DNA of 30,690 nucleotides from a virus: positions 1 through 30,690 of the IMG/VR virus record IMGVR_UViG_3300046744_000287; one strand, 5' to 3'. The notes below the pieces were generated by a model, which did no database searches, had not been told where the DNA came from, and saw only the letters and a list, made by a program, of their open reading frames with translations. Position numbers and translations under genes: made by a program. Shown here piece by piece: positions 2,468 through 20,392 of the stretch. Each line of letters begins with the position of its first letter. Within the stretch, counting starts at the first letter, position 1.

Positions 2468-4449
2468 CCTACCTTAAACTTTTTAAACATATTTTTTGCT
2501 TCTACTAAATTTCCTTTTGTCAGGTAATTTTTTAAAAGTATATTTTTATCTGCTATAAGTGTATATCCTGCTGCCATTGCCGCATCAAATTTTGTTGTTT
2601 TACTTATATCAAATTCTAACCAGTCTTTTAACAGTTCTGGAAAGCAAACCTTATCTACATTTGTTTCTATATAGTCTTCAGTTACTTCTGCAATTTGCTG
2701 ATGTGTCTTCACAGATCCACTCATCCCAGGTTTAGCACTACCAGGTAAATACATTAAGAAGGCAGAATAACCCCGATCTTCAAAATAATTTTTTATACCT
2801 ATTTTGTTATCTTCAAAAAGAAGATCACATGAATAATAGTGACAGCACTTTAAAACATCTTCGTAAAATTGTCTTGCGGTACTTGGTCGGTAAATATATT
2901 CAACTATGAATGAACTGTCATAAAAATTTGATACTGAGTTGTGTTTCTTGTATACATAGAACGCTCCGTTAGACCTTCTTTGGTCTACAGTACTGTCATG
3001 ATCATATGGGTCACACCCCATTGTAAACTCACCTTTTTTTGTTGGATAATAATTTTTACCCCTTTTTATAACATTATTAGCATCCTTAAAATCATCAAAC
3101 AAATATGATACCTTAAATCTTCCGTTTGACATTGGCTTAAATTCTACATGACCTGTTTCTCTGTCACCTACCCATTCAAAATTACCCTGTGTATATAAAT
3201 TTTCATTCCAGGATACACGATCTATTTGATCGTTTAATTTCATTGCGTTAAATAAAGATCTCTCTCCATCTATTCTAAAAGCCTCTTCAATAGTGAACGG
3301 ATTCCTCCTAATAATACTAGACATAGCACGATCATCATTGACAAGATTTGCACGTTCAGCCAGATAATACTCCTTAGCACGTTGCTCATCTGCATGACCA
3401 TACTTGTCAAAGTATAAGGTTTTGTATGCGGGAGTAAAGAATCGAAATAATCCACTGGGAGTTCTACCATGTACATTTCTATCCTCCTGATTACTAGAGT
3501 TCCATAACCTTTTAAACTGCTCACCACCTGATTCCATTTCCTCAACAGTGGTTGTGTAAAGTAGTTTTCCAATGTACGAGCCATCCAGTTCCGAACAGAA
3601 ACGTACAACATTGTGCCTTTCCCAGACATCCACTTCCATAGTTTTTCCAACCTCGTCACCAAGGTATCTGTGTAATTTTGTTCCATCATATGCATATTTA
3701 TCTGAACTCTTCCAATCTATTTGTGATTCAAGTTCTGGTTTTCCTAAGTCCTCAAGCGACTTTCGCCCACGCTTAGTTGTTCTATAAAATCTTAATTCTG
3801 AAGTTGGGGTGACCCCTTTTGACTGATCGTAAACAGGTCTAAAAAAATCTGGTAGTTTTTTAAAAGGCCCCACAATTGACTTAGCAAAAACATTGTTTTT
3901 AGCATCACTTGCAGTTTTAGACTGTATACCACCATTTTTGTTTTTTGACCTTGATATTAAATCAAACATAAAAACACCCGCTCTTACTGTTTTTCCCTGT
4001 CTACGTTTTGTCAATTCTATCATGCCTAAACACTCAGGGTTATCTATACATGATTGTAAAAAATAAAAATATTCTTGATCAACTTTTCTAAAATTTGGAT
4101 AGCCTATGTCTATTTTCCACCAATTTAAAAACAAATAATGCATACCAGTAAGGTATTCTGCTGTTCCATTATTCATGAACCATACACCATTTAACCTTCT
4201 ATCCCATTCTTGTGATCTAAAATTTTCTAACTCTACATCAAAGTAATCTTTATCCTCTGCTTGCCTGGCTAATTCTTCTTTTCTTTTATAATCATAATTT
4301 TCGGGTAACTCAGTTCTAACCCAAACTTGATCTGCTTTTTTAGAAGAACTAGTTATTATAGGCCTTTTTTCTATTTCCTTACTTATTATATTATAAACCT
4401 TACCTTTTGGCGGCAACGTAAATTCTACTCCTTGAATATTTACTGTCAT
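2464..4449 (-). CDS. terL: Terminase large subunit
   Basis: This is a 661-residue packaging motor with ATPase and nuclease parts. A Walker A-like segment TKRRQGKTVRAG lies near residue 150, followed by GGIQSKT, a pattern I associate with crAss-like phage terminases. The C-terminal half carries acidic residues of an RNase H-like nuclease fold: TMGCDPYDHDSTVD near residue 478, LLFEDNKIG near 547 and KFDAAMAAGYTLIA near the end. The gene is coupled to its neighbours by short overlaps on both sides (4446-4449 and 2464-2467). It would bind concatemeric phage DNA, cut it and pump it through the portal. Confidence 0.92.
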   Translation of the reverse strand: MTVNIQGVEFTLPPKGKVYNIISKEIEKRPIITSSSKKADQVWVRTELPENYDYKRKEELARQAEDKDYFDVELENFRSQEWDRRLNGVWFMNNGTAEYLTGMHYLFLNWWKIDIGYPNFRKVDQEYFYFLQSCIDNPECLGMIELTKRRQGKTVRAGVFMFDLISRSKNKNGGIQSKTASDAKNNVFAKSIVGPFKKLPDFFRPVYDQSKGVTPTSELRFYRTTKRGRKSLEDLGKPELESQIDWKSSDKYAYDGTKLHRYLGDEVGKTMEVDVWERHNVVRFCSELDGSYIGKLLYTTTVEEMESGGEQFKRLWNSSNQEDRNVHGRTPSGLFRFFTPAYKTLYFDKYGHADEQRAKEYYLAERANLVNDDRAMSSIIRRNPFTIEEAFRIDGERSLFNAMKLNDQIDRVSWNENLYTQGNFEWVGDRETGHVEFKPMSNGRFKVSYLFDDFKDANNVIKRGKNYYPTKKGEFTMGCDPYDHDSTVDQRRSNGAFYVYKKHNSVSNFYDSSFIVEYIYRPSTARQFYEDVLKCCHYYSCDLLFEDNKIGIKNYFEDRGYSAFLMYLPGSAKPGMSGSVKTHQQIAEVTEDYIETNVDKVCFPELLKDWLEFDISKTTKFDAAMAAGYTLIADKNILLKNYLTKGNLVEAKNMFKKFKVG

Positions 4450-5042
4450 AAATTTGCGATAAATTCTGGTGTAAGTCTTTTATCTGCCTTTATTGTCTTT
4501 AACAACTCCTGATCTTCTCCGTACAGTTTCATGTAGTATGAATCTAATCTATCGTTTATAGTGTTTAAGTCATCCATAATTTTTGACTTAATTTGCAACG
4601 CTTGTAATATATCTTTATCACGATCTCCTTCAACAGGGCTTAATAGTTTTTTTTGATATTCAAAAAATGTTTGTTCATTTGAAACAATCATAGACCATAT
4701 TCTATTATTTTGTTTTCTTAAGAACTCATCTACCATTTCAACTACTTTAGATGACTGGAAAAAAAACATATCATGTAAAATCTCATTATCTTTTACAAGA
4801 TTATATCCAGATAAAACAGCGGCTTGTTCCTTTCTTATTTTAAGATCTGGAAACTGTTCTTTCATTGGTGTATTTTGATCATACATATAAAGAACATATG
4901 TAATCATTTGATCATCAGCAGATTGAAAACTACTAAACATTTTCATTTTAGGATACTTTTTCTTTAATGATCCTTTCACCTTAAATGGATTAAATATCAT
5001 TTTATTAAAGTCCTCTTTATTGAAGATCTCGGTTAAAGACAT
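4446..5042 (-). CDS. Unknown protein upstream of terL, small terminase candidate
   Basis: This 198-residue, mostly helical charged protein begins MSLTEIFNKEDF. I recognise no domain. It is the first gene of the leftward packaging operon, overlaps terL by 4 bases (ATGA) and follows a good Bacteroidota-type promoter at 5060-5092. Gene order (this gene, large terminase, portal) makes a small terminase or head-assembly factor the natural guess. The region from about residue 130 (KKLLSPVEGDRDKDILQ) looks like a long helix or coiled coil, which would suit an oligomeric small terminase. Confidence 0.75.
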   Translation of the reverse strand: MSLTEIFNKEDFNKMIFNPFKVKGSLKKKYPKMKMFSSFQSADDQMITYVLYMYDQNTPMKEQFPDLKIRKEQAAVLSGYNLVKDNEILHDMFFFQSSKVVEMVDEFLRKQNNRIWSMIVSNEQTFFEYQKKLLSPVEGDRDKDILQALQIKSKIMDDLNTINDRLDSYYMKLYGEDQELLKTIKADKRLTPEFIANL

Positions 5043-5059
5043 ATTGTTGGTTTTTGGTA

Positions 5060-5092
5060 AAAATATAACTAATCAATCATGTAGTTGTCAAA
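5060..5092 (-). promoter_or_regulatory. Leftward promoter of the packaging operon
   Basis: On the minus strand TTTG (5092-5089) is followed after 21 bases by TATATTTT (5067-5060), a 7 of 8 match to the Bacteroidota -7 box TAnnTTTG. Transcription would start near 5054, leaving a leader of about a dozen bases before the ATG at 5042. The 21-base spacing is the same as in the site at 10806-10838. Confidence 0.55.
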
Positions 5093-5135
5093 ATTCTTAT
5101 TCGACTTTTATGACAGTAGATTGGGTATTAAATTA

Positions 5136-5168
5136 TTAGGCCTCATATAGCAACATCTTTTATATTTA
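5136..5168 (+). promoter_or_regulatory. Possible rightward promoter of the small-protein operon
   Basis: TTAG (5136-5139), 21 bases and then TATATTTA (5161-5168) is a weaker copy of TTTG-N21-TAnnTTTG in the divergent gap before the ATG at 5186. Each box misses one base. Spacing equal to the two better sites and the right distance to the start are the support. Confidence 0.4.
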
Positions 5169-5185
5169 CCCTTTAATTTATTGTT

Positions 5186-5431
5186 ATGGCACTATATCAA
5201 GGTAAGAGCGTGACGCTCAATAAGGTAATGAAGTCAGAACGAGCAGCAAAGAAAAGTAAGGTGTATGTGAAGAAGCCTAACGGAAAAGTTACTGTCGTTC
5301 ACTTTGGGGATCCTAACATGAAAATTAAAAAAAATATCCCTAGTAGAAGAAAATCTTTTAGGGCTAGACATAAATGTGATAATCCAGGCCCAAGATGGAA
5401 AGCAAGATATTGGGCATGTAAAACTTGGTAA
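5186..5431 (+). CDS. Small basic conserved phage protein with RKSFRARHKCD motif
   Basis: This 81-residue, strongly basic protein starts MALYQGKSVTLNKVMK. Its second half holds VVHFGDPNMKIKK, RRKSFRARHKCD and RYWACKTW. I recognise this type as a small protein common in marine and T4-like phage structural regions, but its exact role is not settled. His and Cys in RHKCD and the later Cys in WACKTW could bind a metal or DNA. It is the first gene of a rightward run of small lysine-rich proteins. Confidence 0.85.
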   Translation: MALYQGKSVTLNKVMKSERAAKKSKVYVKKPNGKVTVVHFGDPNMKIKKNIPSRRKSFRARHKCDNPGPRWKARYWACKTW

Positions 5432-5435
5432 CCCC

Positions 5436-5609
5436 ATGATGACAATGCAAGACTTAAAATTATACCTTATTAACGCAGGGACGTTTACTATCTCTATGAC
5501 ACAAATCGATACAGTACTTAAAATATCACTTTTGGTAATCTCAATTGGATACACCGCACAGCGTTGGTATTATTTAAGACAAGAAAATAAAGATAAAGAC
5601 AATGGATAA
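5436..5609 (+). CDS. Small single-pass membrane protein
   Basis: This is a 57-residue protein starting MMTMQDLKLYLINAG. I chose the ATG at 5436 because it lies just after the preceding stop at 5431; the longer frame from 5376 would overlap that gene by 56 bases. Residues 20-46 contain one hydrophobic segment (VLKISLLVISIGYTAQ), followed by a charged tail, RQENKDKDNG. Size and topology resemble small phage membrane proteins, but there is no clear holin signature. It overlaps the next start by 8 bases. Confidence 0.7.
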   Translation: MMTMQDLKLYLINAGTFTISMTQIDTVLKISLLVISIGYTAQRWYYLRQENKDKDNG

Positions 5610-5856
5610 AATTGAAAAACTTAGATTAAAAGTTGAATATTACAAAAAAGCAGGAAAGCATCAACAAGCATATAATCTTGAAAAAAAGATAAAGCAATTG
5701 ATGGCTAAGGCTGAATACAAAGAAAAAAGAGGTAAAACTGGTATTGGCAAAATAATCAAAAAAGTTAAAGACAAAGTTGTCGATACTGCTGAGAAGGTAA
5801 AAGATGAACTTCCTGAAGTAACAGTTAAGATTAAGAAGAAGAATAAAAAGAAATAA
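5602..5856 (+). CDS. Lysine-rich helical protein
   Basis: This 84-residue protein begins MDKIEKLRLKVEYYKKAG and has a very high lysine content. Its first half is helical and coiled-coil-like, and its C-terminus is a KKKNKKK tail. It overlaps the preceding gene by 8 bases and is 2 bases from the next, so it belongs to one operon. Strong basicity suggests nucleic-acid binding or internal virion packing; no family is recognised. Confidence 0.75.
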   Translation: MDKIEKLRLKVEYYKKAGKHQQAYNLEKKIKQLMAKAEYKEKRGKTGIGKIIKKVKDKVVDTAEKVKDELPEVTVKIKKKNKKK

Positions 5857-5858
5857 TA

Positions 5859-6086
5859 ATGGCAGGTAGAGATTACAAAGCGGAATATAAAAAGTTTCAG
5901 TCTTCTCCTGCTATGATAAAATATAGAGCACTTCTAAATAAGTACAACCGTAAGAGAGGCACATATGGAAATGGTGATGGTTTAGATGCATCTCATAGAG
6001 ACGGTAGAATAGTTGGACTTGAAGACGAATCCGTTAATAGAGGTAGAAAAGAAAAAAGTAGACTAAAAAAAATTAAAAAAGCATAA
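5859..6086 (+). CDS. Small basic protein with degenerate HNH-like motif
   Basis: This is a 75-residue basic protein. The centre, GDGLDASHRDGRIVGLED, resembles the D-x-x-H-x-D-G core of small HNH-like phage proteins that follow a run like YKKFQSSPAMIKYRALLNKY. A full HNH set with the terminal His and zinc cysteines is absent, so nuclease activity is doubtful. Such proteins recur in the structural modules of tailed phages. It lies in an operon with 2-base gaps on both sides. Confidence 0.75.
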   Translation: MAGRDYKAEYKKFQSSPAMIKYRALLNKYNRKRGTYGNGDGLDASHRDGRIVGLEDESVNRGRKEKSRLKKIKKA

Positions 6087-6088
6087 CT

Positions 6089-6163
6089 ATGGCATATTCA
6101 AAAATCAAAAAAATGTGTAAGTGTGGAAAGCCTTACAGTAAGTGTAAAAAGTGTAATAAGTAA
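6089..6163 (+). CDS. 24-residue zinc-ribbon-like microprotein
   Basis: A short frame reads MAYSKIKKMCKCGKPYSKCK and ends KCNK. Four cysteines in the pattern C-x-C-x6-C-x2-C could hold one zinc ion. It sits tightly between two real genes (2 bases after one, 3 bases before the next) with the same A-rich upstream context. Position and the cysteine pattern argue for real coding; the role is unknown. Confidence 0.6.
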   Translation: MAYSKIKKMCKCGKPYSKCKKCNK

Positions 6164-6166
6164 GTT

Positions 6167-6379
6167 ATGGCACTAGAAACACCAGATGGTACAAAAACAC
6201 ATAAAAAAATTAGGAAGAAAAAACGACTAGACAAACGTAATGCTACTGCTAAAAAACGTGCGGAAAGATTAAAAATTAAAAATGATCCTGAAAAGCCATC
6301 TAGCACATACAATACATCTACATTAGATCCTAACTCAAGTGTAAACTACAATGCCATGAATGAGGCAATGTTTAAATAA
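6167..6379 (+). CDS. Small basic protein of unknown function
   Basis: This 70-residue protein starts MALETPDGTKTHKKIRKKKR. The N-terminal half is a run of Lys/Arg residues likely to form a helix, and the C-terminal half is polar and probably unstructured (SSTYNTSTLDPNSS). It is in the same tight operon. No family is recognised; a structural or DNA-contacting protein is possible. Confidence 0.7.
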   Translation: MALETPDGTKTHKKIRKKKRLDKRNATAKKRAERLKIKNDPEKPSSTYNTSTLDPNSSVNYNAMNEAMFK

Positions 6380-6384
6380 ATACT

Positions 6385-7314
6385 ATGGAAGACGAAGAAA
6401 TCATTGACCCAAGGCAACAGGCCATAAATGCAAAAAAAGAAAAACTCAAGGCTCTTTTACAAAAAAGAAAAAAGGCTACTGCAAATAGAGAAACTGCTTT
6501 ATCAGAAAGAGAAAAGGTTGCTCTAGAAAGAAAGGAACTTTTAAAAAAGAAAAGGGCTGAAAGAGAGCAAGAAATAGCAAACTTCAAGGCTAAAAGAAAT
6601 GCTGAAATTCAAGCAAAAAAAGACGAAAGACTTGCTGAAATTCAAAAAAAGAAAGATTTTGATGCAGAAGGTAAACAACTTGCTTCTGATTTTGATAAAG
6701 AAGAAGCGATTAGAAGAGCGGCAGCGATTCAGAAAAAAGCCGAAGATGATAATTATGACTGGAATTATATAGGTGGTGATGAAAATACCGCTAACAAAAG
6801 ACAGAGAACCGAAATTATTGAAGGTGAAAAAGAAGTAGAAAGAATAATTAAGGGGACTAAAGAAATCAATACATTTAAACCAACTGGTAATACAGATGAA
6901 GATGTATATAACGCAGACCCTAGTTTAAAAAAGAAGTACCCAACCTTAGAAAAGTTTAGGATTGCTGCACAAAAATATCGTGATGATCAAGTTAAAACTG
7001 TAGAGACAGAGCAAAAAGTCATTGAAAAAGTTCCTACTAGAGAAGAAAAGGTTATTACTCAAACTAGAGAGGATTGGATTAAGAAACAACATTGGGCTGA
7101 AGGGTTACCTAAAGGTTTAGTTTCTTCACTAGCACTTAGTATGAGAAAAAGAGGTAATGACATGACTCCTAAAGAATTATATGACATATTCAAATCACAA
7201 ACATCTGAAAAAGAATCTGCTGCATGGGCTAGAAAAAATGGATTTGGTTATCTATTAGGTGGTAGAGGTGGTAGAGGATCATCTACAACAAGTGGTAAAA
7301 CAAACTTTAATTAA
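6385..7314 (+). CDS. Highly charged coiled-coil protein
   Basis: This 309-residue protein is the largest of the operon. Residues 1-120 are a nearly continuous Glu/Lys/Arg helix (for example REQEIANFKAKRNAEIQAKK), which predicts a long coiled coil. A middle part, residues 125-225, contains NYDWNYIGGDENTANKRQRT and a DPSLKKKYPTLEKFRIAAQ segment. The C-terminus is Gly-rich (GGRGGRGSSTTSG). I recognise no enzyme motif. A virion or internal head protein is plausible from the neighbours. It shares one base with the next gene (TAATG). Confidence 0.8.
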   Translation: MEDEEIIDPRQQAINAKKEKLKALLQKRKKATANRETALSEREKVALERKELLKKKRAEREQEIANFKAKRNAEIQAKKDERLAEIQKKKDFDAEGKQLASDFDKEEAIRRAAAIQKKAEDDNYDWNYIGGDENTANKRQRTEIIEGEKEVERIIKGTKEINTFKPTGNTDEDVYNADPSLKKKYPTLEKFRIAAQKYRDDQVKTVETEQKVIEKVPTREEKVITQTREDWIKKQHWAEGLPKGLVSSLALSMRKRGNDMTPKELYDIFKSQTSEKESAAWARKNGFGYLLGGRGGRGSSTTSGKTNFN

Positions 7315-7484: not shown

Positions 7485-7494
7485 ATAATTAACT

Positions 7495-7644: not shown

Positions 7645-7645
7645 T

Positions 7646-7831: not shown

Positions 7832-7931
7832 CTTATTATCCCAATGAATTTGAAGCAACTTTATCGCAGGGTGGTATGGAGTATCTATCTTCATTTGTAA
7901 GATATATTCTGCCAGTAATTTTTTTGGTAGG

Positions 7932-8207
7932 TTAACTGCCTTTAAGTGATTCGTGAATTTCTTTAACTCTTTCATAGTGCATTATTTTTAGCATGTTCTT
8001 AAATTTCTTTTTATCTCCGAAATATGAGTGACATTCCCTGCACAGTGCTTGTAAGTTTTCGGGGGTATCCTTTTCATTAGATCCTCCCATTCCCCTGGGT
8101 TCTATATGGTGTATATCAACCGCAGTATTATTACATACTTCACATCCAATCCAATCTCCTGGTTCATACAGAAATGACTCGTGATATAATTTAACATGTT
8201 TCTTCAT
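7932..8207 (-). CDS. HNH endonuclease
   Basis: This 91-residue HNH nuclease shows the whole motif: C22xxC25 zinc pair, DIHHIEPRG with H33 and H34, N51 in PENLQAL, then C56xxC59H60. The ββα-metal fold would nick or cut DNA. Stand-alone HNH proteins of this size are either homing nucleases or partners of terminases; here it is not beside terL but in a small leftward group with a second nuclease-like gene and a GroES-like gene. The gene is convergent with the preceding operon. Confidence 0.9.
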   Translation of the reverse strand: MKKHVKLYHESFLYEPGDWIGCEVCNNTAVDIHHIEPRGMGGSNEKDTPENLQALCRECHSYFGDKKKFKNMLKIMHYERVKEIHESLKGS

Positions 8208-8809: not shown

Positions 8810-9380
8810 GTAAGTCTTGTTGTTTCATTACATAATATTCGACTCCTTCGATTTTGTTGAGAAAAGAATTTCTTTCATGAAACCTTACTAAATCCCCGCT
8901 ATTCAAACCTAATTCATCTTCTCCTTTTAATGGCTCACCAATATGCCTTACATAACCCTCAGTCTCACTCTTCTTTGGCACACCAACATAAATAGACCCA
9001 ATTTTATCTTCAATCATAAATGGCTCTATCAAAACGTGATTGGAAATAGCAGTAAGATTCCCGCCTCTTACATAACAGAAGCATTCTTCTAAATCGACAA
9101 GGTAAACGTCCCTTTCGCCTGTTACTAAATTTTCCTTATCTACTGTGAGATAATTAAAATAGACTAGATCGCCTATAAGTAACTCCTTCTTTATCCATTC
9201 GCCTCTGGTATTTTTACACCACTCTCCTCTAGGCAAAGCCACGACCTCTCCACATATTGTAACGTGATGCTCTGGATTCCAGGTAACGTCCATAAATAGT
9301 TTTTCCCCAGTAGAAAACTCTACCTCGTCATTGTATTTTTTAGAAACCTTAACCGCTATTTTTTGACCAATCATTTCCAT
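8781..9380 (-). CDS. Tandem GroES-like co-chaperonin
   Basis: This 199-residue protein looks like two fused GroES (Cpn10) folds. The second half aligns well by eye: NHVLIEP for the first strand, GSIYVGVPKKSETEGYVRHIG for the strand that flanks the mobile loop, GDLVRFHERNSF for the GDxVxF signature, then YYVMKQQDLLGQI at the end. The first half has a weaker copy: IAVKVSKKY, VTICGEVVALP, GDLVYFNYLTVD and ECFCYVRGGNLTAI. GroES of bacteria is about 95 residues, so this is double length. T4 Gp31 is a precedent for phage-encoded GroES partners that help fold the capsid protein. Whether it forms a ring is not known. Confidence 0.75.
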   Translation of the reverse strand: MEMIGQKIAVKVSKKYNDEVEFSTGEKLFMDVTWNPEHHVTICGEVVALPRGEWCKNTRGEWIKKELLIGDLVYFNYLTVDKENLVTGERDVYLVDLEECFCYVRGGNLTAISNHVLIEPFMIEDKIGSIYVGVPKKSETEGYVRHIGEPLKGEDELGLNSGDLVRFHERNSFLNKIEGVEYYVMKQQDLLGQIIGRAI

Positions 9381-9399
9381 CGGTTACAATTTATGCAAT

Positions 9400-9415
9400 T
9401 TGAACGGTTGTTCAA
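9400..9415. promoter_or_regulatory. Inverted repeat TTGAAC-GGTT-GTTCAA, possible operator
   Basis: A perfect 6-base inverted repeat with a 4-base spacer lies 20 bases upstream of the GroES-like gene start at 9380. Its place near the start of a leftward operon fits a repressor site. A related half-site, CGTTCAAAC, occurs at about 10845 just after the rightward promoter. Confidence 0.4.
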
Positions 9416-9700
9416 TTAAGATGCATTAACAAGTTTTTAACAATAATATTAAGAGTTGGACATTATGGCTATCCTGGCTAGACAGATTGGCTACCTATCT
9501 ATATATAGTATAATATATATAATATATATATAATATATAATACACTAGTATATTAAATTAAACTAATATAATACATGTTTTAGTCACCCCGAATTCTTTT
9601 CAGACGTTTTAAGATAGGTTAAAAAATGGACTGGCATAAGTATACTAAAAATTAAAAAAAGTTTCTTAGATTTGCTCAGAACGTCATTGTAGATGTTTTT

Positions 9701-9808
9701 ATGTGGCAACACCTAGTATATGGGGGTGAGTGGGCAAAAGGGAGACTGGAAATGAGGAACTGGGTACCCTGGCAAAACGAGATCAAATGGCCGAAACAGT
9801 CCACCTAG
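9701..9808 (+). CDS. Doubtful 35-residue Trp-rich ORF
   Basis: A short frame in the G/C-richer part of the intergenic region starts MWQHLVYGGEWAKGRLEMRN and has five Trp residues. It has no good A-rich leader except a T-run, and Trp content follows from the TGG-rich DNA, so it may be chance. It is kept only because nothing else explains the composition. Confidence 0.2.
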   Translation: MWQHLVYGGEWAKGRLEMRNWVPWQNEIKWPKQST

Positions 9809-10014
9809 GACTCAGACATACCCACCCATACCACCTGGTAACCAGTATGTTACACATTTTGCTACTGGTTCTGTAAGCCAGGAGTGTATTTTTCCCTGGC
9901 ATTTGATCCAAAAGGGAAACGCTGCGACACCTGGGCCAAAAAAAATGGCTGTCGGTTTGTTAACGATGCAATGCCTTGAAGATTTTGAGTACTAACAATT
10001 AAAACTAAATAACG

Positions 10015-10152
10015 ATGAATGAACAAGACGAAAATTTAAGACAAGGAAGGAGCCAACAACAATACGAAGACTCATTCAAGATATTGGAAAAGGTAGGTGA
10101 TATTGGCCTGGTGATTTTTGCTATTTACATGTTGATACGTCCATGGTTGTAG
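10015..10152 (+). CDS. Small single-pass membrane protein
   Basis: This 45-residue protein begins MNEQDENLRQGRSQQQYEDS. A polar N-terminal part is followed by one hydrophobic segment, IGLVIFAIYMLI, and ends RPWL. The upstream sequence ACAATTAAAACTAAATAACG matches the recurrent leader motif of this region. It overlaps the next gene by 10 bases. The role is unknown; early phage membrane microproteins often act on the host envelope, but nothing here shows that. Confidence 0.65.
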   Translation: MNEQDENLRQGRSQQQYEDSFKILEKVGDIGLVIFAIYMLIRPWL

Positions 10153-10535
10153 CGAAGAAATTAGTAGAGTTATTTAGTCATCATCATAGCGTGAGTAAAT
10201 ACATCCGCAGCCTGGATGAGGACATACAACATAGAACGGTTATGATCTTTTTAGCATGTGCTATACGAGAGAGTGAGAATAAACAATCGTTCAGTTATTA
10301 TACTATGCCAGAAGTTATATCTATTTGTGAACGTATGGGATGGTTAGCCAATAGATCTAATCAGACACCAATCTACAGGGAACATAAGAAGTTACTCGCA
10401 TTAGGGTTTGTTGATAGGTTAACCAAGAAGAAGAGTTTTAAAGGTCAACAGTTTTGTGTTACCGTATATGGACGTATACAGTTAAGACGTATCTATAACT
10501 ATCTTATTAGGGATCTTTATATTCCCTTACAGTAA
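10143..10535 (+). CDS. Winged-helix-like DNA-binding protein
   Basis: This 130-residue protein has a helix-rich N-terminus, then SYYTMPEVISICERMGW, IYREHKKLLALGFVDRLTKK and FCVTVYGRIQLRRIYNYL. That order (helix, turn, recognition-type helix, then a beta hairpin wing) resembles small MarR/ArsR-like or RepA-like winged-helix domains. It follows the noncoding control region and precedes the main early promoter, so a regulator of early transcription or of replication is a reasonable guess. It is not matched to a named family. Confidence 0.65.
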   Translation: MVVAKKLVELFSHHHSVSKYIRSLDEDIQHRTVMIFLACAIRESENKQSFSYYTMPEVISICERMGWLANRSNQTPIYREHKKLLALGFVDRLTKKKSFKGQQFCVTVYGRIQLRRIYNYLIRDLYIPLQ

Positions 10536-10537
10536 TT

Positions 10538-10580
10538 TGATAAGGTCACCCCAAAATGATCTGATAAGAAAACCCCAAAA
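10538..10580 (+). repeat. Direct repeat TGATAAG-N3-ACCCCAAAA, two copies
   Basis: The copies are at 10538-10556 and 10562-10580 and are identical apart from the three middle bases. The period is 24 bases. The first copy contains the GGTCACCCC motif. They lie just after the winged-helix gene and before the tRNA, where iteron-like protein sites would be possible. Confidence 0.7.
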
Positions 10581-10614: not shown

Positions 10615-10691
10615 TGCCTGGTAGTTCAATTGGATAGAACAACAGACTTCTAATCTGTCGGTTGAGGGTTCGAATCCCTCCCAGGTAACCA
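10615..10691 (+). tRNA. tRNA-Arg (anticodon TCT)
   Basis: A full cloverleaf can be drawn. The acceptor TGCCTGG pairs with CCAGGTA (one G-U). The D arm is GTTC/GAAC. The anticodon stem ACAGA/TCTGT has loop CTTCTAA, so the anticodon is TCT, reading AGA. The T arm is GAGGG-TTCGAAT-CCCTC. The discriminator is A at 10688, and CCA at 10689-10691 is encoded in the DNA. AGA is the common Arg codon in this AT-rich phage, so the tRNA would support its own translation. Confidence 0.96.
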
Positions 10692-12296: not shown

Positions 12297-12704
12297 ATGC
12301 AAACTGAAATTCAAAAATTACAAGCGATCATGAAATTACAAAACGCTCTTAACAGTCATGATTGGCATTATCAAAGATCTGAGGATCCTGGAGTATATCG
12401 AAGAGGTACAGCACAGCGTAACGAGTTAAACATTCTTATGACTGCTATAGGTAATAAAGATCTTGCTCTCTCTCTATACAATAAGGCATGTCCTTGGGTT
12501 GAGAATGAAGAGGAGGTCACCCCAAATCGTTACAGCCTAGAAGAACAGGCCCAGGAATTACTTGATGCAGGAGACTCACACGATGCTGCCGAAGGTAAAG
12601 GAATGATGAGAGTAATTGACGAGATTATGAGCATCATTGATTTGGATGAACCAAAGGATGAATTGTTAGACATGATCTACTTCACTTTAAAATACAATTC
12701 ATAA
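12297..12704 (+). CDS. Unknown acidic protein
   Basis: This 135-residue protein starts MQTEIQKLQAIMKLQNALNS, is acidic and predicted helical. It contains DWHYQRSEDPGVYRRGTAQ near residue 22 and a C-terminal IDEIMSIIDLDEPKDELLDM. No known fold is recognised. The coding sequence includes one exact GGTCACCCC motif (12515-12523). It follows hammerhead 3 and overlaps the next start by one base (TAATG). Confidence 0.75.
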   Translation: MQTEIQKLQAIMKLQNALNSHDWHYQRSEDPGVYRRGTAQRNELNILMTAIGNKDLALSLYNKACPWVENEEEVTPNRYSLEEQAQELLDAGDSHDAAEGKGMMRVIDEIMSIIDLDEPKDELLDMIYFTLKYNS

Positions 12705-13176: not shown

Positions 13177-13320
13177 ATGGCTATAACTAATGAAATATTC
13201 GAACACTACAGATCTCAACAGAGAAAGGTAGCAAAAGCAAAAGATCTTTTAAAAGATGAAGGGTATATAGTTTACCTGAAACCTACAAAAAAGAAAAAGC
13301 AAACTGATGAGCCTGTGTAA
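13177..13320 (+). CDS. 47-residue protein whose 3' end lies in hammerhead 4
   Basis: The frame MAITNEIFEHYRSQQRKVAK is followed by a basic region KPTKKKKQ and ends TDEPV. The final seven codons are read from stem I, the CTGATGA core and stem II of hammerhead 4; the TAA stop (13318-13320) sits in its loop II. The start is 10 bases after the preceding stop in AATTTAAACT context. Basic, helical, unknown. Confidence 0.65.
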   Translation: MAITNEIFEHYRSQQRKVAKAKDLLKDEGYIVYLKPTKKKKQTDEPV

Positions 13321-13384
13321 CTCAGGCGAAACGAGGGAGAAATGTTTTGAACGACTCCATGATTTTTGGCTCCCTCGTCTTTGT
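13299..13384 (+). ncRNA. Type I hammerhead ribozyme 4 with enlarged stem-loop III
   Basis: CTGATGA is at 13304-13310. Stem II is GCCTG/CAGGC (13311-13315 with 13323-13327) with loop TGTAACT, then GAAA (13328-13331). Stem III is eight perfect pairs, CGAGGGAG (13332-13339) with CTCCCTCG (13370-13377), and has a 30-base loop in place of a tetraloop. GTC ends at 13379. Stem I GCAAA (13299-13303) pairs with TTTGT (13380-13384), one G-U. Cleavage would leave 26 bases before the ATG at 13406. Confidence 0.93.
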
Positions 13385-13405
13385 ATAATAATAAAAACTG
13401 AAACA

Positions 13406-13990
13406 ATGAAAAAAAATTTTTGTGATTGCTGCGAGCAAGAGATAGATCAAGATCTAGATTTTTATCAATACGACCGTAACGATGAGATCCTATGTGAAGA
13501 ATGCTATTACGAGGCTTTTAATCGCTCTACTGTAATTCAGACATGGTCACCCCAAGATCAGGAGACAAAAAAATATTATTACCCGCATGAAATAGGGAAG
13601 GCATTCAATACATACTACGAAGAAATTTATTCTGATGATGATGAGGATCACCAACCTGTAAAAGATTGCAAATGGGTAAATTCAAATGCATGGAGAGGTT
13701 ATATGGACGTTGAATTCAAGGAAGGATGGAAAGATATAGAAAGCGGATGGACTACAGGATATTGGGAAGATGTTTCCTGGAAGCATAAGTTTAACGATTT
13801 AGTCCATGAAATTATAGGAGAAAACTCTGAATGCCCTGTAGCAGTATCAATCGTATCAAGTATAACAAGCAATGTATTTTCTCAGGCCACTTCTATTTTA
13901 GTAAGATCTAAAGACGAAGAAACATTTTTAGATTGGCTTGAAAACGAATATGGAATGACAAGAGAACAATTAAAAACATCACTAAAATAA
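13406..13990 (+). CDS. Zinc-ribbon acidic protein after hammerhead 4
   Basis: The product is 194 residues, starting MKKNFCDCCEQEIDQDLDF. I chose the ATG at 13406, since the longer frame from 13307 would read straight through hammerhead 4; the chosen start follows the leader AATAAAAACTGAAACA. Near the N-terminus are CDCC (residues 6-9) and CEEC (30-33), a likely zinc ribbon. The rest is acidic with a D/E run (YSDDDEDH). One GGTCACCCC motif (13545-13553) lies in the gene. Function is unknown. Confidence 0.8.
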   Translation: MKKNFCDCCEQEIDQDLDFYQYDRNDEILCEECYYEAFNRSTVIQTWSPQDQETKKYYYPHEIGKAFNTYYEEIYSDDDEDHQPVKDCKWVNSNAWRGYMDVEFKEGWKDIESGWTTGYWEDVSWKHKFNDLVHEIIGENSECPVAVSIVSSITSNVFSQATSILVRSKDEETFLDWLENEYGMTREQLKTSLK

Positions 13991-14585: not shown

Positions 14586-14591
14586 TTTATC

Positions 14592-14774
14592 ATGTCATTT
14601 AGAAAAGCCGATCAAGAATTAAAAGAACAATTAAGATTGTTATACCCTGGAGCAAGCGAAGACTTTATATCTACCTTATTCCATAACATAAGAGGTAAAC
14701 AGGATTTATTTGGTCACCCCCAGGTGAACGATGATTCAATTTCGGATATAAATTATTTTGGTATGTCAGACTAA
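14592..14774 (+). CDS. Unknown small protein
   Basis: This 60-residue protein begins MSFRKADQELKEQLRLLYPG and is acidic towards its end (DDSISDINYFGMSD). One GGTCACCCC motif at 14712-14720 lies inside the frame. It is close behind the preceding gene and is followed by a 56-base gap. No family is recognised. Confidence 0.6.
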   Translation: MSFRKADQELKEQLRLLYPGASEDFISTLFHNIRGKQDLFGHPQVNDDSISDINYFGMSD

Positions 14775-14830
14775 ATTGTTAATTTAGCCCTGTCAGACGA
14801 TAATTTACACTGAAAAAAAAAACTACTATT

Positions 14831-15136: not shown

Positions 15137-15164
15137 AACAAAACCCTTTTAAAACCAACAAACA

Positions 15165-15707
15165 ATGACGTTATTAGAAAACGATATCAGCACGATTGTA
15201 AAAGTAATAAGACAAGTTACAAATGCAGACCCACTAGCAAAGGATAGATACAGGCATAATGTAGATGCCAGGTTTATGTTATTCAAAATTTGCAGGGAGT
15301 TTTTAAACCTTACATTTATGAGAATAGGCAGGCTAGTAGGTAAAGATCACGCTACCGTTCTATATGGATGCAGACAATTTGATAGCCTTATAGCAACAGA
15401 TCGAGAATTTAGAACTAATTATGAGGCTGTAGTTACTTTAATGGACAGCGTAGAACTGCAAAGCAAAATAGATTCTACTGAATTCTTAAGTGATTATGTA
15501 ACTATGAAAGGAAAATATGAAGATCTAAAAACTAACCACGATAAAATATTAAAAGAATTTGTAAAAGGAAGTGACGCTGTAATGATCGCAATGTTCTACA
15601 CCATAAGTAATTCTGTTATCAAAGCAATAATAGAAGATCAAGGATGTTCTAAACATTTAAACCAAACTTTACAGCAGGTACTTGCAACAAAAGAAATATA
15701 TAATTAA
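15165..15707 (+). CDS. DnaA domain IV-like DNA-binding protein
   Basis: This 180-residue protein has a clear DnaA-type DNA-binding region at residues about 28-76. DARFMLFKICREFLNLTF is followed by MRIGRLVGKDHATVLYG, the helix-turn-helix signature that in DnaA reads the DnaA box (residues 59-68 are GKDHATVLYG). The AAA+ ATPase domain is missing, so it cannot be a full DnaA. It could bind DnaA-box-like sites in the phage origin, recruit or block host DnaA, or act as a regulator. The C-terminal 100 residues are helical with no known fold. It lies upstream of the recombinase and replication genes. Confidence 0.8.
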   Translation: MTLLENDISTIVKVIRQVTNADPLAKDRYRHNVDARFMLFKICREFLNLTFMRIGRLVGKDHATVLYGCRQFDSLIATDREFRTNYEAVVTLMDSVELQSKIDSTEFLSDYVTMKGKYEDLKTNHDKILKEFVKGSDAVMIAMFYTISNSVIKAIIEDQGCSKHLNQTLQQVLATKEIYN

Positions 15708-15718
15708 ATTTAAACATA

Positions 15719-15979
15719 ATGCAAACTACAAATATCAAACTGAAAACTAAACGCAATCGTACACATAGTGTATTGAAGGCTAAAGCACACAAACTTTTAC
15801 AGATACCTTGTGTGCCCACTACAGAAGTGTGTGAATATATCTATGGCTCTAAAACCAAAAAGAGCACGCTTAATCAAAAGAAAACAGGTCAATCTCCACT
15901 ATTATTTGAGGAGTCATGTCGTATAATTGAATACTATGGCAGGCTATCTGAAAACATAGATGAGATTATAAACAGTTAA
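15719..15979 (+). CDS. Small basic protein, possible DNA-binding
   Basis: This is an 86-residue protein. The N-terminus is basic (KLKTKRNRTHSVLKAKAHK). The middle, PTTEVCEYIYGSKTKKSTLN, could be a short helix-turn-helix. The C-terminus is helical (FEESCRIIEYYGRLSENIDE). The leader before the ATG is AATTTAAACATA, the common type. It is the last gene before the double hairpin at 15985-16038. Confidence 0.65.
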   Translation: MQTTNIKLKTKRNRTHSVLKAKAHKLLQIPCVPTTEVCEYIYGSKTKKSTLNQKKTGQSPLLFEESCRIIEYYGRLSENIDEIINS

Positions 15980-15984
15980 ACGAT

Positions 15985-16038
15985 GGTTCAAGTCCCCTAG
16001 GGACTGCAACCTAATGCCTCATACGTTCGGTATGGGGC
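15985..16038 (+). ncRNA. Two adjacent hairpins, unidentified structured element
   Basis: Hairpin A (15985-16011) pairs GGTT with AACC and AGTCCC with GGGACT around a CTA loop and a 2x2 internal loop. Hairpin B (16016-16038) pairs GCCTCATAC with GTATGGGGC (one G-U) around GTTCG. The linker is TAAT. No T-run follows, so it is not an ordinary terminator. It begins 6 bases after a stop codon and lies 55 bases before the recombinase gene. It may be a processed 3' end, a ribozyme-like element or a site used by the recombinase; I cannot match it to a known RNA class. Confidence 0.55.
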
Positions 16039-16092
16039 GAATTCGAAAACTGAAAAAACAGCCTGATTTGTTCAACATTAAATCACACTTCG

Positions 16093-17055
16093 ATGAAGAA
16101 GAATACATTTTTATATTTACTTACAGACATAATAGATCTCCTGGAAAAAGGTGAGATACTTAATTACGGTAAAAGGTTTTCACCTTTAACTATAAGAGCA
16201 TATAAACAATTGCTTAGTGGCATGAAGCGTTATAACTATAACTTTAATATAGAGGAGTTAGATTGTAATAACGTAAGCAGCAGAAAGGATAGGCTTAAGG
16301 TCACCCGAAAATTACAGAGCCATGTTAACGGTTATTTAAATTTAATGCTCGATGACTGTAAACACCCTAACACCAGGAAAACACATCTTAAAAACATAAG
16401 AGCAACGCTAATGAAAGCAGAGTCTTATTATGGTTATTTGTTTCCTAAACTACAGTCAATGAGAGAGTTACAAACAGAAGTTATTGCTCTTACACCTGAT
16501 CAAGTAGATATGATCCACAATAACCACCCAGGAGAGGAACTAGAAAACATATGGTATTACACAAGACTGATGCTTTACTCTTGCATGAGGATCTCAGATC
16601 TTACAAACTTTCAGGCCACAAGTGATGGCAATGTTGTTACGATCATTACTAAAAAAGGAATGGGATCGTTGTCTACTTTTTATTTGCCTGATGATGTGAA
16701 TAGTTATATCGCAAAGAATGGTACGTTTTCCTGGACACTAAAAACATTTAGGAGAGGGCTAGAAGAACTTCTTAAATTTTATCCTGAGTTTATGCAATCT
16801 AAAACTGTATACACTTTTGATCATGAAGGGAACCCTATTGCTTCTCAACAATTTTTATATGAATTAATCAAGCCACATAAATTAAGAAGCAGCGGGATTA
16901 CATATCACTTGTCTAAGGGTTTAAGTGAAATTGAGGTTAGAAGAATATCAGGTCATGCAAATGGATCGGAAGCATTCTACAGATATGTTAGACACAGCGA
17001 CACAGAGTCTTTGAAGAAACAAGAAATTAACCACAAGTTGTTAATAAAATCATAA
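16093..17055 (+). CDS. Tyrosine recombinase (integrase family)
   Basis: This 320-residue site-specific recombinase shows the catalytic set: R166 in SCMRISDL, a beta-hairpin Lys at 187-188 (TKKG), H262 and R265 in HKLRSSG, H288 in GHANGSEA and the nucleophile Tyr at 296 or 298 in FYRYV. The N-terminal 130 residues look like a core-binding domain. The presence of a full set suggests an active enzyme that could integrate the phage, resolve dimers or invert DNA. It is downstream of the hairpin element and carries a one-mismatch GGTCACCCC-like site (16299-16307). Confidence 0.9.
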   Translation: MKKNTFLYLLTDIIDLLEKGEILNYGKRFSPLTIRAYKQLLSGMKRYNYNFNIEELDCNNVSSRKDRLKVTRKLQSHVNGYLNLMLDDCKHPNTRKTHLKNIRATLMKAESYYGYLFPKLQSMRELQTEVIALTPDQVDMIHNNHPGEELENIWYYTRLMLYSCMRISDLTNFQATSDGNVVTIITKKGMGSLSTFYLPDDVNSYIAKNGTFSWTLKTFRRGLEELLKFYPEFMQSKTVYTFDHEGNPIASQQFLYELIKPHKLRSSGITYHLSKGLSEIEVRRISGHANGSEAFYRYVRHSDTESLKKQEINHKLLIKS

Positions 17056-17064
17056 ATATATTTG
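17038..17064 (+). promoter_or_regulatory. Possible promoter of recombination/replication operon
   Basis: TATATTTG (17057-17064) is a perfect TAnnTTTG box. The nearest TTG (17038-17040) is 16 bases upstream, shorter than the 21 seen elsewhere, so the -33 match is poor. It lies at the end of the recombinase gene and before the next gene group. Confidence 0.45.
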
Positions 17065-17090
17065 ACGAACGATGGTGCAAATATAAAAAA

Positions 17091-17141
17091 ATGTCTTACC
17101 TTCGAGGTAAACAACCACGACATGAAAAATTCACTAATTAA
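17091..17141 (+). CDS. 16-residue leader ORF, in frame with the next gene
   Basis: ATG at 17091 follows AATATAAAAAA and reads MSYLRGKQPRHEKFTN, then TAA (17139-17141) and at once ATG (17142) in the same frame. It is either a leader peptide or the N-terminus of the next protein cut off by a stop codon. Confidence 0.35.
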   Translation: MSYLRGKQPRHEKFTN

Positions 17142-17399
17142 ATGGTCAGATTTGACTACGAAAATAGCGAGATCATTCATGATCGAAAAAGGTTTTCTCT
17201 TAGAGAGTTCAAACTTTTCATGCTCACACATCACGAAGACATCTGTATGGAGCGAAGAATTAAGGATTGGATATTTGATTGGGAATCAATCTTGTTTCAT
17301 GCAAGAAAATATTATATAGTAAACTTTTATTTAATAAACATAATCAAAAATAACAATGGGAAAACTGAAAAGAAAACTAAAGAAAACAACAATCGGTAG
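17142..17399 (+). CDS. Unknown small protein
   Basis: This 85-residue product begins MVRFDYENSEIIHDRKRFSL. It is preferred to the other frame from 17062 because its composition (charged and aromatic residues) is more protein-like and a preceding in-frame start exists at 17091. Its last 15 residues, Asn/Lys-rich, overlap the next gene by 44 bases. No family is recognised. Confidence 0.45.
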   Translation: MVRFDYENSEIIHDRKRFSLREFKLFMLTHHEDICMERRIKDWIFDWESILFHARKYYIVNFYLINIIKNNNGKTEKKTKENNNR

Positions 17400-17895
17400 A
17401 GGCATAGAGATAGTGCCATGGGTCGAAAGACTTAATTACTTCAACGACTACTTCAGGGTTGAAGGTTATTCATTAAACACAGAGATTATAGACATGAACG
17501 ATAGTATTATCGTCATGAAGGGTATTGTTTTAGATCCCGATAGAAATCCTGTCGCTGATGGAGTCGCTCACAAAAGAACTACAGAGCCTTTTTCATTTCA
17601 AAAATGTCAATCAGGAGCACTTAACAGAGCCTTATTTATTTTAGGTATTGTGGATAGTGCTGAAGATTCAATTATGGATGAAGATGATGCCAAAGAATTA
17701 CAACAAGTAAAAGCCCAGGAACAGGCTAGTGTTTATGAAAACATGAAGGCTCACATTCCTGTAGATTATTCTGTTGTTGAGGCAAGACTTTCCGCAAATA
17801 AAAATTTACTTACAAGCGATCAGATGAAAGAATTAAAATCTTTGATCAACGCTGAGAAATCAAAAGTGGCTATAAAGCAAGCCAAGAAAAAGTAA
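17356..17895 (+). CDS. Single-strand annealing protein candidate (Rad52/ERF-like)
   Basis: This 179-residue protein has an alpha/beta N-terminal half with VLDPDRNPVADGVAHKRTTE and then FQKCQSGALNRALFILGI. That last stretch resembles the helix typical of ERF/Rad52-type annealing proteins (x-SAIGRALx-LGI). The C-terminal half is a basic, helical tail. Its place just before a YqaJ exonuclease gives the usual two-component phage recombination pair in which the nuclease resects ends and the annealing protein pairs the strands. Family assignment is by pattern only. Confidence 0.6.
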   Translation: MGKLKRKLKKTTIGRGIEIVPWVERLNYFNDYFRVEGYSLNTEIIDMNDSIIVMKGIVLDPDRNPVADGVAHKRTTEPFSFQKCQSGALNRALFILGIVDSAEDSIMDEDDAKELQQVKAQEQASVYENMKAHIPVDYSVVEARLSANKNLLTSDQMKELKSLINAEKSKVAIKQAKKK

Positions 17896-17901
17896 CATCT
17901 T

Positions 17902-17965
17902 AGGGAGGGTCTAACCAACAACAAACGTAAAAGCACGACTGCTCTTTACTGCCCTCCCTTTTTTT
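17902..17965 (+). terminator. Intrinsic terminator with nested hairpin
   Basis: AGGGAGGG near 17902 pairs with CCCTCCCT near 17959, followed by a run of seven T. Between them GTAAA and AGC pair with GCT and TTTAC (one bulged C), so a second hairpin is nested inside. It lies 7 bases after the annealing-protein gene and just before a repressor-like gene; partial read-through could set the level of the downstream exonuclease. Confidence 0.75.
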
Positions 17966-17976
17966 AAATCTAAGAA

Positions 17977-18132
17977 ATGGATAGAGGAGAAACGATAGAA
18001 AAAAAATCAAATAGAATCACATTTAGACTTACTCCGAGCGAGGTACAAAGTTTAAATAATGTGTCATCTAAGACTGACTTAAACGTGTCAGAATTAATCA
18101 GAACTGCATTAAAACAAACCTATAAGATATGA
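17977..18132 (+). CDS. Ribbon-helix-helix protein
   Basis: This 51-residue protein shows the RHH pattern: a beta strand SNRITFRLTPSEVQSL, a helix and turn (NNVSSKTDLNVSE), and a second helix ELIRTALKQTYKI. RHH dimers bind DNA operators, so an autoregulator of the exonuclease operon is likely. It shares an ATGA overlap with the next start (18129-18132). Confidence 0.75.
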   Translation: MDRGETIEKKSNRITFRLTPSEVQSLNNVSSKTDLNVSELIRTALKQTYKI

Positions 18133-19154
18133 GCAAAATTCAAAGAATACCAACAGCAAAACTAACCTATGAAGAATGGGTAGAACTAAGAAAAAGTCTA
18201 GTATACAAAGGAATGGTCGGAGGATCAGACGCATCTACATTACTTGGATTAAATCCCTGGACATCTAAAATAACAAGATGGAATCAATCTGTAGGTACTG
18301 CAAACATTAAGAACATAGATAATGAGATTATGTTTCATGGTCGCTTGTTGGAAGATTATGTTGCTGACCTATGGCAATATTGGACAGGAGATCCAATTGA
18401 AATGATAAACAATTATCAATCAAAAACTAAATTAAGAAAATCAATTAGAAGAAATTCCATCTTCATAAATCCAAAGTATCCTTTCTTGTTTGCAAATATT
18501 GACAGACAAATTACAAGCCATGATGAACAACATGGGAAAGGTGTATTAGAAATAAAAACAATATCAGGCTATAATGCTGATAAGTGGTCAGGAGGAATAC
18601 CTCCATATTATATTGCACAGATCCAATTGTACATGCTAGTTTTAGGATATGACTACGGACAGTTTGCTTTCTTAAAAGATGGAAGGCACATGGATGTATT
18701 TACAGTAGAGGCAAATCCAAATATTCAAGAAACAATACTTGAAGAGGCTGAGAGATTTTACCTCAGCGTCCAGGAAGCAAGAAACATTATTGATATCAAA
18801 GGAGAAACTATCAATATGAATGAAAGATATAGATTGGTTTCTCACCTAGAGCCTGACGTAGAGGATGAATACAAGGTTGATCTTGATCAGTTTTTATCTG
18901 AAAAACATAAGGCAATGGTTGACAGAGTAAGGATAGACTCTGATGATGAGTTACTAGGCCTCACTAGAGAATATGTTGAGAATAGAGATAAAGAAAAGGT
19001 TGCTAAATCAAGTAAGCAACTAGCAATGCAGCAAATAAAACAAATTCTTATACACAGAGGTGCACAAGAGGTAGACTTTGGTGAAAGTGGTAAGATCGTA
19101 TGGGGAAAGACCTTCAACGTAAGATTTAAAGAAACTGAAAAAGTAAATTTTTAA
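18129..19154 (+). CDS. YqaJ-type recombination exonuclease
   Basis: This 341-residue phage nuclease has the YqaJ/lambda-exonuclease fold. GGSDAS is at residues 31-36 and MFHGRLLEDYVADLW near 69-83, with the acid that starts the core helix. FANIDRQI near 120 supplies Asp, LEIKT near 140 supplies E-x-K, and the following helix PPYYIAQIQLYMLVLG has the usual Gln. The C-terminal 110 residues are helical. It would chew 5' ends of duplex DNA and hand the strand to the annealing protein encoded at 17356. It begins in the RHH gene stop. Confidence 0.93.
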   Translation: MSKIQRIPTAKLTYEEWVELRKSLVYKGMVGGSDASTLLGLNPWTSKITRWNQSVGTANIKNIDNEIMFHGRLLEDYVADLWQYWTGDPIEMINNYQSKTKLRKSIRRNSIFINPKYPFLFANIDRQITSHDEQHGKGVLEIKTISGYNADKWSGGIPPYYIAQIQLYMLVLGYDYGQFAFLKDGRHMDVFTVEANPNIQETILEEAERFYLSVQEARNIIDIKGETINMNERYRLVSHLEPDVEDEYKVDLDQFLSEKHKAMVDRVRIDSDDELLGLTREYVENRDKEKVAKSSKQLAMQQIKQILIHRGAQEVDFGESGKIVWGKTFNVRFKETEKVNF

Positions 19155-19155
19155 T

Positions 19156-19521
19156 ATGAAATTAAACGATATAAAAAAAGGTATACTGAACAACCTGGCA
19201 GTTAAGAACCGTCACACACTAGAAGTAGATTCAGTAATAGAAGGCAATTCATATTTTGGAGTTTGCATTTTTGTAGGCATATCTAGAATGTTTAATTTTT
19301 CTGCACAGGAAATCTCAGATTTTTTATCTGAAGATCTTCATCATGTAAAGTTTATGGAAGACAAATTTCTTACTATACTAGATGATTACTTTAATTCTAA
19401 AGAACCAAGTGCAACATCAAAAGCGTTTTCAGTAAAAACAAATTTACTGCTAAATCACATTAGAATAGAACACAGTAAAACAGTTTCTCTAGCAGAAATT
19501 ATTAAAGAAAAAATTAAATGA
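19156..19521 (+). CDS. Unknown protein with possible DnaA domain IV-like HTH
   Basis: This 121-residue protein contains GISRMFNFSAQEISDFLSED then LHHVKFMEDKF. Set without gaps beside the DnaA-type signature IGRLVGKDHATVLYG of the gene at 15165, residues I, D, H and V fall in step (EISDFLSEDLHHVKF), so a related helix-turn-helix is possible. The similarity is limited and my alignment is by eye. Position between exonuclease and an OB-fold protein suggests a replication/recombination role. Confidence 0.6.
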   Translation: MKLNDIKKGILNNLAVKNRHTLEVDSVIEGNSYFGVCIFVGISRMFNFSAQEISDFLSEDLHHVKFMEDKFLTILDDYFNSKEPSATSKAFSVKTNLLLNHIRIEHSKTVSLAEIIKEKIK

Positions 19522-19775
19522 ATATAGAAGTTTTAGGACAGGTTAAATATATATCAAAACCAAAAGAAGTAAAAGGAGAAGGAACCCATTCGTTCGTTAC
19601 TGTTTGGGTAAAAACTTTAGAGGATTCATACCTTGCGATTAATTGTTGGGATGAGCACATCGAAAAGACTAAAGATTTTAAGATTAATGGGATAGTTACA
19701 TTGAACTGTAGGGTAGAGTCCCATAGAAACAAAAAGAACCAGGATTTATTTTATCATAAACTGTTACTTACATGA
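19518..19775 (+). CDS. Small OB-fold-like protein
   Basis: This 85-residue protein starts MNIEVLGQVKYISKPKEVKG and has alternating strands (HSFVTVWVKTL, YLAINCWDEHIEK, GIVTLNCRVESHR). A one-domain OB-fold of this length would bind single-stranded DNA. It overlaps both neighbours by 4 bases. The strand pattern supports an SSB-like fold, but no named family is certain. Confidence 0.5.
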   Translation: MNIEVLGQVKYISKPKEVKGEGTHSFVTVWVKTLEDSYLAINCWDEHIEKTKDFKINGIVTLNCRVESHRNKKNQDLFYHKLLLT

Positions 19776-20392
19776 TCAGATCAACAACAATCATATATGA
19801 TGTTTTAAGGAAACAAGACCTGTCTCCTGTTGGATACATGTTATGTGATCTTATCTATAAGTATACATCACACGATGGTTATTGTGACGTAACACTATCT
19901 GATTTAGCAGATCAATTAAATTCTTCTTCTAGAACAATGAGTCGATATATGTCGGAGTTATCAGATAAAAATTTGATTGAAAACATAGGTACGAAGGCAC
20001 ATCCAAAGTATAGGACAACCCCCCTTTGGTTTACAATCGCTGTGTCAGACAATAAAAATGATGATAGTGTTTCTCTTGAGTACCAGGAAGTTTGTGCTGA
20101 TGTCATCAATTACATCAACGAAAGGTACGGAAATAAGTACGTTCCTAGAACATATGAAAAAAGATTTAAAAGCATCTTATCCAAAAAGTTTAACGGAGAG
20201 CCAATTACAGGATCAACCATGGTTAAAGTATTTATGTGGTGTAAAGACAATTGGAGTCAAAAGTATCAGTCCTCAGTTACTCCTGAGGTAATATTTGGAA
20301 AGAAATTTATAGAGAAATACCTAATACAATATACAGAGTGGGAGACAATGAGTAAGGTCACCCCCAATAGAAAGAATATAGCAATAATATGA
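19772..20392 (+). CDS. Replication initiator/DnaD-like protein, phg_2220 C-terminal type
   Basis: This 206-residue protein has an N-terminal winged helix (residues 15-75: DVTLSDLADQLNSSSRTMSR, then YMSELSDKNLIENIG), used to bind DNA. The C-terminal part has VINYINERYGNKYVPR, FKSILSKKFNGEPI and VTPEVIFGKKFIEKYLIQY, which is the order seen in the conserved phage C-terminal domain (phg_2220_C) of DnaD-like loaders. It overlaps the primase-helicase gene by 4 bases, fitting a loader or initiator for it. A GGTCACCCC motif is at 20356-20364. Confidence 0.75.
   Translation: MIRSTTIIYDVLRKQDLSPVGYMLCDLIYKYTSHDGYCDVTLSDLADQLNSSSRTMSRYMSELSDKNLIENIGTKAHPKYRTTPLWFTIAVSDNKNDDSVSLEYQEVCADVINYINERYGNKYVPRTYEKRFKSILSKKFNGEPITGSTMVKVFMWCKDNWSQKYQSSVTPEVIFGKKFIEKYLIQYTEWETMSKVTPNRKNIAII

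Follow-up and report, generated by a model that had tools for sequence, protein, structure and literature searches.

A nine-letter word, GGTCACCCC, is strongly over-represented in the genome of a marine phage and lies on one genome strand whatever the direction of the genes, except in one zone where its orientation is reversed. The word was analyzed in a 30,690-nucleotide stretch of viral DNA (IMG/VR record IMGVR_UViG_3300046744_000287, positions 1 to 30,690, referred to below as the window), a 30.7 kb fragment of a phage genome of ~63 kb, and in related viral contigs. Its probable role is that of a directional marker for an enzyme involved in copying, repairing or cutting the phage DNA.

The window contains six copies of GGTCACCCC compared with 0.03–0.04 expected, and none of 100 dinucleotide shuffles reached six. 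No other 9-mer in the window is as strongly over-represented, and the word has a density of ~1 per 7 kb. All six copies listed in a first-pass annotation of the sequence were confirmed. Five are on the plus strand: at 10544–10552, intergenic, directly after the open reading frame (ORF) 10143–10535, a place conserved in ~20 related loci; at 12515–12523, inside ORF 12297–12704 in a V-T-P frame; at 13545–13553, inside ORF 13307–13990 in a W-S-P frame; at 14712–14720, inside ORF 14592–14774 in a G-H-P frame; and at 20356–20364, near the end of a replication-initiator-like gene, 33 bases upstream of the primase-helicase gene. The sixth (3806–3814, minus strand) lies within terL, is reversed relative to the others, and overlaps GGTGACCCC, read on the plus strand (GGGGTGACCCC).

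Three variants on the plus strand are probably real sites, judged by their recurrence in relatives: GGTCACCCG at 16299–16307, within the tyrosine recombinase gene; GGTCGCCCC at 24991–24999, antisense within an amidase gene and previously overlooked; and GGTCACCCT at 28963–28971, antisense within the gene of a 1817-residue structural protein. Of the near copies proposed earlier, those at 16299 and 28963 were thus retained, and the one at 9583 (here 9582, AGTCACCCC) is probably not a site, because at the homologous intergenic positions some relatives have CACCCCGAAT or ACCCCGAATT and others lack the sequence.

Codon bias was ruled out as the cause of the word by synonymous codon shuffling within genes. 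Coding sequences of the window contain five copies, compared with a mean of 0.30 in the shuffles (0/200 reached five), and the observed count was never reproduced in any of eight genomes tested (0/200 each). A control using the reversed word gave no copies in all contigs tested. The earlier suggestion that codon bias alone does not explain the word is therefore upheld by the shuffles, and likewise by invariant wobble bases (below) and by copies at different positions in relatives.

The word lies almost entirely on one strand across 26 related viral contigs, which include distant relatives. With the contigs oriented by their primase genes, it is on the plus strand in both gene sets: sense in the rightward replication genes, antisense in the leftward structural ones. 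Mapping to window coordinates gave about two dozen non-homologous positions, all plus, that extend from right of 10.5 kb around to the opposite side of the genome, and a few between 3.8 and 8.3 kb, all minus. In 15 contigs of lineage A, unique contexts of GGTCRCCCC (GGTCACCCC and GGTCGCCCC together) numbered 59 plus and 0 minus outside the zone from terL to the early promoter (the terL–X zone), and 0 plus and 7 minus inside it; these contexts are not independent, many being the same site across related phages, while the list of positions is. The weaker form GGTCRCCC[AGT] gave 35 plus and 2 minus outside the zone, and 3 plus and 1 minus inside. One relative (G003) contains a reversed copy within a rightward gene, which is hence also antisense.

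The orientation of the word is thus set by the genome strand and not by transcription. The impression in the first-pass annotation that the word is mostly on the sense strand arose because the window holds mostly rightward genes, although its orientation did prove non-random in the relatives. A strand bias of C runs was considered as the source of the polarity and rejected: CCCC and GGGG are about equally frequent in the plus genes, so the polarity there is not due to composition.

Two sites within genes show constraint on the DNA itself. At the 20356 site, 33 bases upstream of the primase gene, the wobble base of the V codon is C in 28 of 30 distinct sequences and that of the P codon is C in 29 of 30 (entropy 0.35 and 0.21, respectively, compared with a mean of 1.37 over 31 other four-fold columns, none as low). 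At the near copy in the recombinase gene (16299), the wobble base is C for both the V and T codons in 21/21 distinct homologues, and none of the 40 other columns compared is invariant. Since these wobble positions are frozen, selection acts on the DNA at both sites. At the primase site, GGTCACCCC or GGTCGCCCC is present in nearly all relatives down to ~84% primase identity; the usual replacement, GGTCGCCCC, changes Thr to Ala but leaves the word intact, two loci have GGTATCCCC, and the word is missing in more distant relatives (~84% primase identity and below). Together with the codon shuffles and the occurrence of the same word at different positions in relatives, these patterns support the earlier proposal that the word is a recognition site for a protein.

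In lineage A the polarity flips once between ~8.3 and 10.5 kb, an interval that contains the intergenic region X (9380–10143), located between the leftward and rightward genes. The other flip is located beyond terL. Region X has two TAGMCA-N3-TGKCTA inverted repeats, an AT tract (at ~9490–9560) and a promoter-like box, TAGATTTG, all conserved across relatives; we take the box to resemble the TAnnTTTG promoter element of Bacteroidetes. Composition and repeats make region X a candidate replication origin, (divergent) control region or genome-end region. It contains no full-form copy of the word, and the sites are dispersed over the whole genome rather than clustered as iterons or DnaA boxes would be. 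Third-position GC skew, used as an independent origin marker, was dominated by gene strand and uninformative, and no unique genome end could be recognized from the contig ends.

Sister lineages B and C, with terL ~52–53% identical, have other over-represented C4 words, with the same polarity. The lineage B word is CCCCCGARC, mostly on the plus strand (plus/minus: G016 8/1, G017 12/2, G018 11/2, G019 11/4, G432 13/4, G443 7/1); four of these genomes have a minus copy in terL, at a place other than that in lineage A. In lineage C (G431), CAATCCCC is present in 28 copies compared with 0.5 expected (22 plus, 6 minus). A second over-represented word in G431 (L312–L314), ATGCGAGCG, has 10 copies, 8 plus and 2 minus. 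No such polar word was found in G014, G015 or G440–G442, the top words of G014 and G015 being repeats within one gene, and no comparable word was found in Elemovirus or in the Cellulophaga phages phi38:1 and phi19:3, where the top words are coding or tRNA repeats.

Our tentative preference is that GGTCRCCC(C) is a selected, phage-specific recognition word in double-stranded DNA, similar to Chi and read by a DNA-processing enzyme of the phage. As with Chi, an enzyme moving along the phage DNA, whether towards region X or away from it, would stop, pause or load at the word depending on its orientation, during replication, recombination and concatemer processing. Like Chi (E. coli GCTGGTGG; also phages P1 and T5 and Rec− lambdoids), the word is short, asymmetric, GC-rich and strongly over-represented in its replicon at a similar density, and its orientation is biased by replicon strand independently of transcription. 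Chi occurs about once per 5 kb in E. coli, is over-represented in P1- and T5-type phages, and in phages concentrates between the origin and the packaging site (PMC3784561). Unlike Chi, the word is phage-lineage specific and not strongly enriched in Bacteroidota chromosomes, its C-rich strand reads away from the candidate origin, and its reader is a candidate only. The reversal in the terL–X zone favors the Chi-like reading. The change of word between related phages fits this reading and the nick-site explanation discussed below alike.

The likeliest reader would be a phage enzyme, given the lack of enrichment of the word in candidate hosts; a candidate is the YqaJ (lambda-Exo/RecE-type) nuclease encoded at 18129–19154 on the plus strand (PF09588, E = 1.9e-23; phrog_434, E = 4e-55). 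A 179-residue protein encoded upstream of it (17356–17895) has no Pfam hit and matches phrog_11717, of unknown function; its location suggests a possible single-strand annealing partner. Among the sequenced parts that were compared, the tyrosine recombinase (16093–17055, plus strand; phrog_1, E = 2e-13), the YqaJ nuclease and an HNH protein are present in the lineages with polar words and absent from G014 and G015; this co-occurrence, seen in a handful of incomplete genomes, is not enough to name the reader. The distributions of the primase and of a protein with a DnaA domain-IV helix-turn-helix (HTH) do not track the word. Lambda exonuclease, of the same family as the YqaJ nuclease, pauses strand-specifically at GC-rich motifs such as GGCGA (PMC7496540), and GGCGA is contained in the complement of GGTCGCCCC.

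Several observations weigh against a Chi-like word read in this way. The motif GGCGA(TTCT) is not known in lambda as an over-represented, polar, genome-wide word, and the GGCGA pause sequence is contained neither in the main variant GGTCACCCC nor in the unlike words of lineages B and C. No enzyme is tied to the word, and G440 and G441, which have no polar word, contain a YqaJ-like gene (~30% identity) together with the HNH gene, the tyrosine recombinase being absent. The contigs L058 and L137 (21.8 kb together; close relatives if one phage) lack GGTCRCCCC despite a 78% identical nuclease; their 8-mer copies are 2 plus and 1 minus. The wobble bases of the terL copy (3806) are not unusually constrained, so this copy may be incidental. 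The reversed zone is supported by just four or five positions, the majority of relatives are fragments, and region X is proposed as origin or end from its composition and repeats only.

The main rival explanation is that the words mark localized single-strand interruptions in one strand of the virion DNA, as in phages tf, T5 and phiKMV, made by a phage nickase such as the 91-residue HNH endonuclease (7932–8207, minus strand; PF01844, E = 5.7e-9; alignment A2). Phage tf has the 9-mer TACTRTGMC 14 times, always on the same strand and always nicked, and in its relatives a slightly altered word occupies similar positions (PMC3517423). The resemblance to the present pattern is close: outside the terL–X zone, the word here also keeps to one genome strand regardless of gene direction, and it varies between related phages at persisting positions. 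The HNH endonuclease gene occurs in lineages A, B and C and is absent from G014 and G015. However, the reported nicks are in one strand only, whereas the polarity of the present word reverses in the terL–X zone. The sequences also differ, and the present sites are known from sequence alone. HNH homologues are very common and present in phages without a polar word, so HNH alone was rejected as the determinant of the word. Contig ends are not enriched at words (0/150 within 50 bases compared with 1.4 expected), although this is weak evidence. We therefore regard nick sites as a possible, if rather doubtful, explanation. The tf sites are the nearest structural analogue of the word, and Chi the nearest functional one.

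A lagging-strand signal, in which the word lies on the template for that strand at forks departing from X and serves the primase-helicase or fork assembly, appears unlikely. The polarity would fit a linear molecule replicated in both directions from X, and the phage encodes its own TOPRIM primase-helicase. Nevertheless, the words are long and, at one per several kb, rare for primase sites, and the primase of G014 and G015, which have no polar word, is equally similar (43–44%).

Slightly harder still to sustain is the idea that the words are dispersed operators for a phage regulator, or binding sites of the DnaA domain-IV protein (15165–15707, plus strand; PF08299, E = 3.6e-10). Stoperators of mycobacteriophage L5 are asymmetric 9–13-mers dispersed in the phage genome and oriented with transcription. 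The present sites are likewise asymmetric and dispersed, some of them intergenic (10544), the tyrosine recombinase suggests a possible temperate life, and an HTH protein is encoded. Unlike stoperators, the words do not follow transcription, being antisense in the structural genes. The DnaA domain-IV protein is disfavored as a binder because its gene is mismatched to the word in distribution: lineage B has a polar word but no detected copy of this gene, whereas G014 and G015 have the gene and no polar word. The product of 15165–15707 is small, with the domain-IV HTH and without the ATPase; the record of Cellulophaga phage phi19:3 likewise annotates a short DnaA protein.

It is very unlikely that the phage acquired a host Chi or an FtsK-orienting polar sequence (KOPS), despite a polarity and density like those of bacterial Chi and KOPS. 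The word was strongly enriched in none of 597 genome searches (399 Flavobacteriales and 198 Bacteroidota, a few shared), which covered candidate hosts; the phage's true host may lie outside this set. The highest Bacteroidota genome has ~101 copies in 4.9 Mb (~21 per Mb, 4-fold over control) and most are near control, compared with ~100–200 copies per Mb in the phages; CCCCCGAAC was likewise not enriched in 100 Flavobacteriales genomes. The absence of strong enrichment makes a host Chi or KOPS unlikely (dif sites were not searched for) and disfavors the earlier suggestion of a site for a host protein. A sense-strand RNA-level signal, also raised in the first-pass annotation, or chance and codon bias, is scarcely credible, short of a use of the word through pervasive antisense transcription: although most copies are sense within the window alone, the word is antisense in the structural genes of relatives and in the rightward gene of G003, codon shuffles never reach its count, and its wobble bases are constrained.

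The terminase and portal proteins match phage families, the closest named terminases being those of Flavobacterium elemo phages and Cellulophaga podoviruses (26–31% identity); nearer relatives than these are uncultured contigs. An initial scan of the genome contigs with the primase as query found no relative. Rightward genes (~10–23.7 kb) encode replication functions (tyrosine recombinase, YqaJ nuclease, initiator-like protein, primase-helicase and single-stranded DNA-binding protein), and leftward genes include terL, portal and structural genes. A tRNA-Arg (TCT) gene at 10615–10691, in the early region, lies ~60 bases past the word at 10544. One relative (G004, L169–L172) is 64,043 bases long with an exact terminal repeat of 211 bases, which suggests a complete genome of 63.8 kb. 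The window contains 67 CCWGG sites compared with 25 expected, and no CCSGG compared with 6.6 expected; CCSGG is likewise absent from G003, G004, G011 and G020, possibly through avoidance of a host restriction site.

Little literature on polar phage words and on Chi orientation in phages was found beyond PMC3784561, PMC7496540 and PMC3517423. Chi is known as a host word borrowed by phages; nick sites confined to one strand occur in a handful of phages, with no known purpose. The Bacteroidota podovirus-like phages, kin of Elemovirus and the Cellulophaga podoviruses, could instead have lineage-specific, genome-strand-polar signpost words (GGTCRCCCC, CCCCCGARC and CAATCCCC) read by a phage-encoded enzyme, a Chi-like system of their own in which reader and word co-diverge; we hold this as a possibility, and loosely. 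The polarity pattern also singles out a candidate origin region of these genomes, and uncultured phage lineages with different polar words in the same orientation offer a natural experiment for finding the reader enzyme. If the proposal is true, a directional DNA code can evolve within phages themselves.

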